The notes under the pieces: generated by a model
Database searches by the model: none
The model's input: the letters and a program-made list of their open reading frames with translations, nothing else
What the model was told of the DNA's origin: nothing
Program-made: the position numbers and the translations under genes
Assembly (NCBI RefSeq): GCF_000017165.1
Contig: NC_009634.1
Span: 1,348,552-1,412,551 of the forward strand
Length of the DNA stretch: 64,000 nucleotides
Reading direction: 5' to 3'
Origin: Methanococcus vannielii SB
GTDB taxonomy: Archaea; AGJL01; Methanococci; Methanococcales; Methanococcaceae
Shown here: positions 51,832-55,136 of the stretch, piece by piece
How positions within the stretch are numbered: position 1 is the first letter of the stretch
How the letters are laid out: each line of letters starts with the position of its first letter

Positions 51832-53535
51832 ATGGCTATGAGCATGAAAAAAATCGGTGCTATTGCTGTAGGCGGTGCAATGGTTGCATCCGCTTTAGCA
51901 ACTGGTGCTTTAGCTGCTGAAAAAGTTGGAGATGTAGATGCATTTGCTGCTAACGCAGTAACAAATGGAAACGTAAACGTAGATATTGTAGTAGGTTCAA
52001 ACGCTGCTGCAAAAGACGTTGTTTCAGCTGCAAACATCGCTGCAAAAGTAGGCTCATTAATGTTTAAAGAAGGTTCCGCAACTGACGGTAACGCAAAAGT
52101 TACTGTAAGTGCAAGTTCAAAATCTGACAATATTAAAAATATCTGGGATGCAGGTAATGCTTTCGCTGCTACAAATGAAGTATTTTTATTTGCTGCTGCT
52201 GACGATGACTATACAGGTACCGCTGCAGGAACTGGTGTTCCTAACTACTTACTCGGTAAAACATTCATGGACTACACAGTTCCTCCTGCTGCACAGGTTA
52301 TTGATTTAGAAGACTTACAAACATTAGCTGCAGTAAGTGACGCTGATCCTTCAGGATGGGATATATTTGGAACAAATAAAGACTTCGAAGCTGCAGAAGC
52401 TGTTGCAGCAGTAATTAGGACCCAACAACCTGCTGCCGCCCTATTTAACACCGGTGCAGACTTACAGGTAAGTGAAGACGAAGCATTCTATATGTCATTA
52501 GCATTCGAAGAAGACAAATACGGTAGTGCACTTGCTGATTATGCAAGACTCTTCCCAGGTATGAGAATTCCATTCTTAGGCCAGGAAATGGTTGTAGTAA
52601 AACTTGATACCGATGATGACTTAGTTATCTTAGGTAAAGAAGTATACGATGGAGTAGTTAAACAAAGAGGTGACAACTACGATTTAGGAAACGGTTACGC
52701 TGTAAAAGTAAACAACGTTTTAACACAAGGTGCAGCTTACAAAGCAGATGTTCAACTTTTAAAAGATGGAAAAGTTGTAGCTTCAAAATTCGATACAATT
52801 GATGGTAACGGTAACCAAATTACAATAGTTTACAAAGACATCGGTATCGTTGTAAACGATGCATGGGAAGACATTGGTGGAAACTACGGTTTCGCTGAAA
52901 TGGTTATTACAAAAGATGTAGTAACATTAGAACTTGGTGAAGAATACATAAATGATTGGGAAGCATACGCAGTAAGGGCTACAGCAGCTGGATTAATTGA
53001 ATCAGACAGTGCAACAAGCACCGCTGCAGTTCCAGTTGTAGGTATTGCTTTAAAATACGTTGGAGACGACGTAGATAAAATTAGAAAAGACAAAACATTC
53101 TCAATTGCAAACTATGCAAAATTAGACTTTGATGAAGACAGTGGCGATATGGCTGTTCAATTCTTAATGGATGATGCAAAAGATGTAACATTAAGCATTG
53201 GTCAAAAAGTTTCAGTATTAAATGCTGAAATTAAATTAAATGAATTAATGGCTGATGCTAAACAATCAGTTCCAATGACTGCACCAATTGCAAAATTAGA
53301 CGCTGAAGCTTCATTAAGTGCTGCTAACAAAGATTTAATCTTAGTTGGTGGACCAGTTGTAAACACACTCGCAAAAGAATTAGCTGACAAAGGCTTAATT
53401 GCAATTGACAACGCTTCCCCTGCAACCTTAGCTGTAGCTAAAGGCGCTGCAAACGGAAAAGATGTATTAGTTGTAGCTGGTGGAGACAGAGATAAAACTG
53501 CTGCTGCTGCTACTGCTTTAATTGCAATGTTATAA
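51832..53535 (+). CDS. sla: S-layer protein
   Basis: The main surface-layer glycoprotein of methanococci. The 567-residue protein starts with a signal peptide ([18 protein letters not shown], cut near ALA-A). The mature start [10 protein letters not shown] and an acidic, alanine-rich chain follow, with a final stretch resembling [21 protein letters not shown], as in Methanococcus S-layer proteins. Potential N-glycosylation sequons are few. Codon use is biased toward favoured codons and differs from the neighbours, as expected for a very abundant protein. Two hairpin terminators follow the stop. Confidence 0.93.
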
Positions 53536-53556
53536 TTCAAACTTTCAAAATTTTAA

Positions 53557-53579
53557 AAAAAGAATCTTTGATTCTTTTT
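53557..53579 (+). terminator. Hairpin terminator after the S-layer gene
   Basis: The sequence AAAAAGAATC-TTT-GATTCTTTTT forms a ten-base-pair stem with a three-base loop, ending in a T-rich stretch. It lies 22 bases after the S-layer stop codon. Confidence 0.7.
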
Positions 53580-53619
53580 AAATTTTTTTAAGAAGTTTGA
53601 ATAAAACATGAAATTAAGT

Positions 53620-53650
53620 GTGTGGGTATTTAACCCACTTTTTCTTTTTT
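53620..53650 (+). terminator. Second hairpin terminator with T-run
   Basis: GTGGGT and ACCCAC pair around ATTTA, followed directly by TTTTTCTTTTTT. Together with the hairpin 40 bases before, it gives a double terminator for a strongly expressed gene. Confidence 0.7.
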
Positions 53651-53723
53651 AGAATATAATATTTATAAATTTAAATTAATCGATTATTTTTTAAATAAGT
53701 TTAATAAAAATAATGTTTTTAAA

Positions 53724-54899
53724 GAAAGGGCTACGCCCCTTTCAACCCTAGCGGGATAACAAGTTATCCCACTGGTAAAGTTTTAAGTTTTACAAAAAAA
53801 TAGCGAGGAGAAGTTCCAAACGAAAGGGCTACGCCCCTTTCAACCCTAGCGGGATAACAAGTTATCCCACTGGTAAAGTTTTAAGTTTTACAAAAAAATA
53901 GCGAGGAGAAGTTCCAAACGAAAGGGCTACGCCCCTTTCAACCCTAGCGGGATAACAAGTTATCCCACTGGTAAAGTTTTAAGTTTTACAAAAAAATAGC
54001 GAGGAGAAGTTCCAAACGAAAGGGCTACGCCCCTTTCAACCCTAGCGGGATAACAAGTTATCCCACTGGTAAAGTTTTAAGTTTTACAAAAAAATAGCGA
54101 GGAGAAGATTCAAACGAAAGGGCTACGCCCCTTTCAACCCTAGCGGGATAACAAGTTATCCCACTGGTAAAGTTTTAAGTTTTACAAAAAAATAGCGAGG
54201 AGAAGATTCAAACGAAAGGGCTACGCCCCTTTCAACCCTAGCGGGATAACAAGTTATCCCACTGGTAAAGTTTTAAGTTTTACAAAAAAATAGCGAGGAG
54301 AAGTTCCAAACGAAAGGGCTACGCCCCTTTCAACCCTAGCGGGATAACAAGTTATCCCACTGGTAAAGTTTTAAGTTTTACAAAAAAATAGCGAGGAGAA
54401 GTTCCAAACGAAAGGGCTACGCCCCTTTCAACCCTAGCGGGATAACAAGTTATCCCACTGGTAAAGTTTTAAGTTTTACAAAAAAATAGCGAGGAGAAGT
54501 TCCAAACGAAAGGGCTACGCCCCTTTCAACCCTAGCGGGATAACAAGTTATCCCACTGGTAAAGTTTTAAGTTTTACAAAAAAATAGCGAGGAGAAGTTC
54601 CAAACGAAAGGGCTACGCCCCTTTCAACCCTAGCGGGATAACAAGTTATCCCACTGGTAAAGTTTTAAGTTTTACAAAAAAATAGCGAGGAGAAGTTCCA
54701 AACGAAAGGGCTACGCCCCTTTCAACCCTAGCGGGATAACAAGTTATCCCACTGGTAAAGTTTTAAGTTTTACAAAAAAATAGCGAGGAGAAGTTCCAAA
54801 CGAAAGGGCTACGCCCCTTTCAACCCTAGCGGGATAACAAGTTATCCCACTGGTAAAGTTTTAAGTTTTACAAAAAAATAGCGAGGAGAAGATTTGAAC
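53724..54899. repeat. Twelve tandem 98-bp units carrying a tRNA 3' end
   Basis: Units start at 53724, 53822, 53920, 54018, 54116, 54214, 54312, 54410, 54508, 54606, 54704 and 54802. In order, each holds a hairpin (GAAAGGG/CCCTTTC), a palindrome (AGCGGGATAA/TTATCCCACT, 10 bp with wobble), an AT-rich weak hairpin, seven A's, and then TAGCGAGGAGAAG plus eight bases. The last 21 bases match the 3' end of initiator tRNA-Met on the minus strand, with a few changes. The final unit runs into the intact tRNA gene. Units look identical except that the eight bases are TTCCAAAC in most and ATTCAAAC in units 4 and 5. There is no ORF and no promoter-like box A inside a unit. Confidence 0.95.
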
Positions 54900-54954
54900 T
54901 TCTGGTCTCCGGGTTATGAGCCCGGCGGGATAGGCCTGGCTACCCTACCTCGCT
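54879..54954 (-). tRNA. Initiator tRNA-Met (CAT), copy 1
   Basis: A 76-nt cloverleaf on the minus strand: acceptor AGCGAGG with CCTCGCT, loop CTCATAA with anticodon CAT, T arm AGAAG-TTCAAAT-CTTCT, discriminator A. Three G:C pairs next to the anticodon loop (GGG/CCC) and the A1:U72 pair mark it as the archaeal initiator. CCA is not encoded. Seven T's follow its 3' end, and then the 98-bp array, whose units repeat its 3' end. No clear box A lies in the 106-base spacer, so it may depend on the upstream copy's promoter. Confidence 0.95.
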
Positions 54955-55060: not shown

Positions 55061-55136
55061 TAGCGAGGAGAAGATTTGAACTTCTGGTCTCCGGGTTATG
55101 AGCCCGGCGGGATAGGCCTGGCTACCCTACCTCGCT
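55061..55136 (-). tRNA. Initiator tRNA-Met (CAT), copy 2
   Basis: Identical in all 76 bases to copy 1. It lies 106 bases upstream of it in the direction of transcription. TTTTTAATT follows its 3' end, and there is no repeat array on this side. A box A-like GTTTAAATAC (minus strand, 55172-55181) lies about 37 bases before the gene. The duplication is recent or kept identical by gene conversion. Confidence 0.95.

Follow-up and report, generated by a model that had tools for sequence, protein, structure and literature searches.

The integrases of Methanococcales use the 3' ends of tRNA genes as targets, with att sites of 50–60 bp (PMC8371274); the att sites of pT26-2-family elements have a palindrome in the T-arm in common (PMC6972569), and tandem integration is known for the tRNA-targeted elements of this order (PMC8371274, PMC6972569). 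The short inserts considered here resemble the pT26-2-family and type II tyrosine integrase elements in that the 3' end of a tRNA gene is the target, the gene is restored and a displaced fragment is found at the far end. Elements of the pT26-2 family, however, span kilobases and encode an integrase, and their att sites are longer (50–60 bp), whereas the inserts are about 70–200 bp long, gene-less, and begin in the T-loop. Mobile DNA at a tRNA gene is also part of a model for Caldiarchaeum, in which tRNA fragments and introns are left behind; the element in question differs from the inserts by its size of 1.8 kb, its predicted recombinase and the displacement of a 5' fragment (PMC3293823).

Being short, gene-less, hairpin-rich, dispersed and presumably mobilised in trans, the inserts may also be compared with MITE and REP-like repeats; a palindromic hairpin was present, duplicated copies were often diverged, and no autonomous partner was found in the sampled stretches. 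To our knowledge, such palindromic repeats have not been described as bringing a substitute gene end, whereas the inserts contain a copy of the gene end as a structural component. Restored-gene islands in protein genes have a substitute 3' end, a displaced old end and a foreign allele at the junction, as do the inserts, which differ from them by the lack of cargo genes and by one common hairpin module at many unrelated targets.

Structure of the array

The window, i.e., the whole stretch of 64,000 nucleotides of Methanococcus vannielii SB which was analysed, contains two initiator tRNA-Met genes (anticodon CAT) on the minus strand, one at 54879–54954 (copy 2; ARAGORN and Rfam) and one at 55061–55136 (copy 1; ARAGORN and comparison with relatives). 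The tandem pair is kept in most of the genus, and both genes were read as initiators because of three G-C pairs in the anticodon stem and an A1-U72 pair. Twelve near-identical units had been reported downstream of the initiator gene in a preliminary description, and this was confirmed by TRF, ARAGORN and comparison of the units. TRF gave a tandem repeat at 53724–54891 with a period of 98, 11.9 copies and 99% matches; together with the unit-by-unit comparison, an array of 12 units was delimited at 53724–54899 (minus strand), with the start of unit k at 53724+98(k-1), joined to copy 2 of the tRNA gene. The array occupies the intergenic gap between the tRNA genes and a convergent gene for an S-layer-like protein (51832–53535, plus strand; from the ORF list, named from reading of the sequence, with gene order alike in relatives), and no gene is disrupted. 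The 98-bp unit contains no gene, and a search of the array region against Rfam matched only the tRNAs and no known structured RNA family.

In the sense of the tRNA, the initiator gene is followed by TTTTTTTG, a weak palindrome, AGTGGGATAACTTGTTATCCCGCT, GAAAGGGGCGTAGCCCTTTC, GTTTGGAACTTCTCCTCGCTA and again TTTTTTTG. The palindrome adjoining the displaced end, GAAAGGGGCGTAGCCCTTTC, has a C-GTA-G loop, lies at 53724–53743 in its first occurrence (minus strand; sequence and folding) and recurs each 98 bp; the second strong palindrome, AGTGGGATAACTTGTTATCCCGCT, first occurs at 53750–53773 (minus strand; sequence and folding). Both had been noted before, and a weaker third one, first seen at 53775–53793 (GTAAAACTTAAAACTTTAC, minus strand; from the sequence), had been overlooked. 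Allowing 3 mismatches, each palindrome was found 12 times, as against 0.04–0.09 expected in the window, which excludes chance. The G+C content is 42% in the array and 31% in the window.

The first displaced tRNA 3' end (GTTTGGAACTTCTCCTCGCTA, followed by seven T in the tRNA sense) was located by unit comparison at 53801–53821 (minus strand) and recurs at +98. The array thus consists of 12 bodies of 77 bp, which are 100% identical, and 11 displaced ends of 21 nt. The preliminary description, according to which each unit ends in about 21 nt of the tRNA and seven T, holds for these 11 ends; the twelfth is the 3' end of the tRNA itself, since unit 12 continues into the tRNA-Met gene, and the far end (53724) stops past the hairpin and has no displaced tRNA end. 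At the 11 internal junctions, a hairpin directly precedes a second copy of a gene end, downstream of an intact gene. Units 1–3 and 6–11 are identical; units 4 and 5 differ from them at two positions and carry GTTTGAAT, with both variant positions agreeing with the tRNA. That these variant junctions are adjacent is a sign of local block duplication.

In a search of this single-contig genome (1,720,048 bp), the 98-mer was absent outside the array; in 40 relatives, as well as in plasmids, phages and viral contigs, only short chance or tRNA matches were obtained.

Perfect repetition, strong hairpins and the location between convergent genes might point to a functional iterated site, such as an RNA decoy of tRNA processing, a terminator array, an origin or a partition site. 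The idea of a decoy of tRNA processing enzymes, put forward earlier, was abandoned after folding, because the displaced end has no 5' strand to pair with and gives no T-arm on folding. A stretch of seven T stands directly behind the tRNA. Since the array is absent from all relatives and single inserts elsewhere show that iteration is not needed, a function of this kind is hardly credible.

Orthologous sites in related genomes

Empty orthologous sites were found in three relatives (G001, G004, G006); in G001, the second initiator tRNA is followed by CCATTTTTTT, with no insert. A single insert of 76 bp is present in G003 behind the second initiator tRNA, where the sequence reads TTTTTTTATTAATTC..., the hairpin AACCTTTTGTATAAAAGGTT, GGTTTGAAACGTTCTCCTCGCTA, and then the ancestral CCATTTTTT. 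This insert has the same architecture as a unit of the array, and its displaced end precedes the ancestral flank. The 77-bp body was not found in the corresponding tRNA trailer of any sister species.

The final hairpin of the array and its outer flank (53535–53742, no strand assigned; alignment) are colinear with the flank in the relatives, except for the terminal tRNA end and CCATTTT: past the last unit, the alignment with G001 and G003 begins at TTTAAAA, and the tRNA end plus CCATTTT are missing. A terminal displaced end may thus have been lost by a deletion of about 30 bp. The array locus alone is not decisive, since plain tandem duplication would leave an identical far end; likewise, given a far end with no displaced tRNA end, tandem duplication suffices to account for an increase from one unit to twelve.

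Such a duplication could have involved a hairpin-holding tRNA trailer together with the tRNA 3' end, by slippage or recombination, followed by homogenisation and with no mobile element at all. It predicts an array which starts in the tRNA and whose last body has no displaced end, exactly as observed, and it would agree with bodies that are all identical, with two variant units that are neighbours, and with hairpin sequences that are unique to the locus. It does not explain why the 77-bp body is missing from the trailers of all sister species, the higher G+C content of the array compared to the window, or why G003, behind the corresponding copy of the tRNA gene, has one insert complete with its displaced end, and it leaves the related inserts elsewhere unaccounted for. 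As the sole origin of the array, plain duplication of tRNA end and trailer is therefore unlikely, though it deserves serious consideration.

Displaced ends at other tRNA genes

By a stricter count in four genomes, a displaced 3' end lay no more than 600 bp downstream of 12 of 119 tRNA genes; the same scan yielded no displaced 3' ends upstream and no displaced 5' ends on either side. The array is outside this count, because those of its ends that match better are beyond the 600-bp limit. In nine of the 12 cases, an automatic test detected a hairpin immediately preceding the displaced copy. Displaced 3' ends occurred at the tRNA genes for iMet, Thr, Gly, Val, Leu and Ser in G013 and for iMet, Ile, Val, Arg and Leu in G008; G003, G008, G013 and others have inserts with a displaced tRNA end at their far end. 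The genome of the window has a second case, a tRNA-Leu with a decayed family hairpin plus GTTTGAATC. The inserts at tRNA genes have a common hairpin, GATGCAACTTTTTnnAAAAGTTGC-GTTTGAATC..., whereas the tRNA part matches the gene at each locus; in G013 there is an additional first hairpin, TCCAAAACGAACGAAGTGAGTTTTGGA. Identity begins in the T-loop, at about nucleotide 58. Stacking was also seen elsewhere: three units of 132 bp form a tandem array at the tRNA-Ser of G013, and a three-unit array of 97 bp is located at a tRNA-Met of the Nanoarchaeota MAG WY4.bin80.

A de novo scan for the arrangement repeat-hairpin-repeat in 443 kb of this genome gave two weak matches, compared to seven in the control position, and nothing convincing was found there besides the two tRNA cases. 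The same scan in G013 produced seven matches versus three in the control, five of which were genuine, with the stretches partly chosen around known cases.

An ordinary integrated element is present in this genome at a tRNA-Ser (L379; G000:C1 1649681 to ~1664310), with exact 57-bp repeats about 14.5 kb apart and a tyrosine-integrase match between them; no other was found when the sampled stretches of the genome were scanned over long ranges for displaced tRNA ends. It could be imagined that the inserts are scars left by ordinary integrated plasmids or proviruses after internal deletions, with attL and attR fused by a hairpin, and the tRNA-directed att sites of Methanococcales (PMC8371274) with their T-arm palindrome in the pT26-2 family (PMC6972569) would be in keeping with this. 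The ordinary att repeat, however, begins at the anticodon arm and lacks a hairpin, whereas the small inserts start at the T-loop; in the array, the repeat comprises 21 nt from the T-loop and not 50–60 bp from the anticodon arm, a displaced end is lacking at the far end (53724), and no integrase gene was present in the 98-bp unit or the related inserts. None of the small inserts in the sampled stretches contained a gene, and the same hairpin layout is seen at unrelated genes, a structure on which independent deletions would not converge. An origin as scars is accordingly very improbable.

Hairpins behind protein genes

A search with the G013 element revealed a dispersed family in Methanococcales, the existence of which is well supported; the genomes G011, G013 and G016 are rich in inserts. 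In G013 itself, nine of 12 matches lay just 3' of tRNA genes; the remaining ones, and many in other species, followed protein genes and had a further copy of the gene end behind them, often through the stop codon. According to Pfam, the protein hosts were ATP-synt_D (ATP synthase subunit D), SMC, S15, FrhB, CGI-121, eIF2-gamma-like, S-layer-like and a small-domain methyltransferase; atpD, smc and rpS15 are thus among the genes with the hairpin module. Several hairpin copies in G011 had no second gene end. The family hairpin sequence, GATGMAACTTTTTnnAAAAGTTKC, does not occur in the 98-bp unit, whose hairpins differ from it in sequence. The unit would nevertheless appear to belong to the family, judging from its position, size and architecture, the junction of hairpin, GTTTG and tRNA end, the C-GTA-G loop and the insert in the sister species, rather than from hairpin sequence.

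For thirteen coding pairs, the functional gene end (A) was compared with the displaced end (A'), and 53 synonymous and 32 nonsynonymous differences were counted. The expected share of synonymous differences is 21.5% for random changes and about 35% for a duplication in which the dead copy then decayed (p = 4e-7). The pairs were picked by hand and by eye from loci found via the hairpin, and the test is therefore not based on an unbiased sample.

The atpD region was gathered from 36 genomes. Inserts were located at one shared codon in five species of a genus of the sister family (g5, which we take to be Methanocaldococcus) and in G013. In three of the genomes (G023, G028, G029), the functional and the displaced atpD ends were closest to ends from other species: A of G029 differed at 2 of 51 positions from A' of G023 and at 8 of 51 from its own A', and A' of G028 differed at 2 of 51 from A of G023 and at 8 of 51 from its own A. 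Bootstrap values for such swaps were 0.998 and 0.984 in the two clearest cases and 0.71–0.95 in two others. Between the sister species G033 and G027, the body of atpD differed at 1 of 140 positions and the tail at 5 of 51 (p = 0.006), while an insert-free sister pair showed 2 of 140 and 2 of 51, respectively. Since the ends of atpD were swapped between species and the body of the gene was not, the inserts come with gene ends of foreign origin. For G027, G033 and G013, the closest match of either atpD end was the other one, which suggests that recent local events or conversion also happen.

These data bear on the possibility that palindromic repeats were transposed with a long target-site duplication (20–60 bp), which then decayed. 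The extent of the downstream copy, which reaches 20–40 bp beyond the tRNA in the Thr and iMet cases of G013 and comprises only the trailer in L192, would be compatible with this. A dead copy would decay regardless of codons, whereas the coding copies differ mostly synonymously, and a fresh duplication would be identical, whereas the atpD ends are alleles of different species. We regard long target-site duplication as quite improbable.

Proposed mode of origin

It appears somewhat probable that the unit is a gene-less insert, which may be termed a "gene-end cassette", and that the array represents one such unit amplified in place. The cassette would bring a replacement for the 3' end of its target gene, joined by a short spacer to at least one hairpin, and would enter at a fixed point, which in tRNA genes is the T-loop; the gene would be completed by the substitute end, and the old end would remain past the last hairpin. 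The observed layout of gene, substitute end, hairpins and old end is what would result if insertion were site-specific and took place where the old end begins. A recombinase or nuclease acting in trans is a candidate for the enzyme, and a circle or linear DNA could be the form of transfer. Tyrosine-integrase counts do not track the inserts across the genomes, and inserts were present in G023, where no integrase was detected. Gene-bearing versions, with copies 350–16,000 bp apart after the right arm of the hairpin, were not found in about 1 Mb of sampled DNA after removal of CRISPR repeats.

Because the end of a tRNA cannot be recoded, each insertion would recreate the target. Stacking at tRNA genes, and not usually at protein genes, would fit this idea. 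Units could be added through further insertions, or identical copies could undergo unequal exchange; both are conceivable for the array, and the adjacent variant units would favour some block duplication. A single unit at the second initiator tRNA gene would have given rise to twelve, either recently or under homogenisation, before the small deletion at the far end (about 30 bp) removed the last displaced end. That a minimal insert entered the tRNA gene at its 3' end, as suggested earlier, is strongly supported by the empty and single-insert sites in relatives, by the cases at many tRNA genes and by the exchange of atpD ends; the array itself is weaker evidence, since the displaced end expected of an insertion is lacking at its far end.

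As a tentative generalisation, which could well prove wrong, such gene-less cassettes of about 70–200 bp may constitute a new class of mobile DNA in Methanococcales and DPANN archaea, with fixed insertion points close to the 3' ends of tRNA genes and of conserved protein genes, carrying substitute ends between species, mobilised in trans, and stacking where a tRNA end is recreated. If this is true, site-specific integration, with a gene end split and then restored, is possible for DNA of about 100 bases without genes, and the ends of essential genes are exchanged between species by such pieces. Cassettes would also offer a source of the tRNA fragments and tandem arrays beside archaeal tRNA genes. 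Some Methanococcus species are genetically tractable, which should make the idea directly testable.

Further observations

Besides Methanococcales, the matches listed from a hairpin-pattern scan of the genome collection included DPANN archaea. Among the matches listed, 23 of 51 archaeal ones were inside or near tRNA genes, and for the bacterial ones (from termite gut and others), which represent a common intergenic repeat, linkage to tRNA was 0 of 80. In contigs of Defluviitaleaceae, Oscillospiraceae and Rikenellaceae (L246–L365), a high-copy intergenic repeat had the same hairpin sequence, often after a hairpin with a GCGAAGC loop; the bacterial repeats may be kin of the archaeal family or merely similar. 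In nine DPANN loci (L253, L255, L285, L296, L299, L300, L303, L305, L355), the same hairpin (GAAACTTTT..AAAAGTTTC) was found inside tRNA genes, often at the position of the anticodon loop and intron-like, which is a possible link between the repeats and intron gain or split tRNAs.

Loops were often of the type C-GNA-G (GCGAAGC, ACGAAGT, GCGTAGC), e.g., in the units of the window and in L018, L076 and L196. Loops of this kind are unusually stable when DNA is single-stranded, which hints at a stage that involves such DNA. In L393, L186, L189 and L096, the loop of the family hairpin was split by clusters of other small hairpins, e.g., GGCTACAAAAACTCGAAGAGTTTTTGTTTAAC, with an apparent duplication of AACT in L393.

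Two copies of the hairpin element were seen in CRISPR repeats; in the CRISPR arrays at L206/L163 (G011) and L304, the element stands beside a partial extra copy of the CRISPR repeat. The family hairpin element had no match among plasmids, and two viral contigs contained the hairpin pattern. In L223–L225 (G002, G005), an S-layer-like gene was found with hairpin inserts, two of them in tandem in L223, and with diverged alternative C-termini, and the inserts may thus change the end of the encoded protein.
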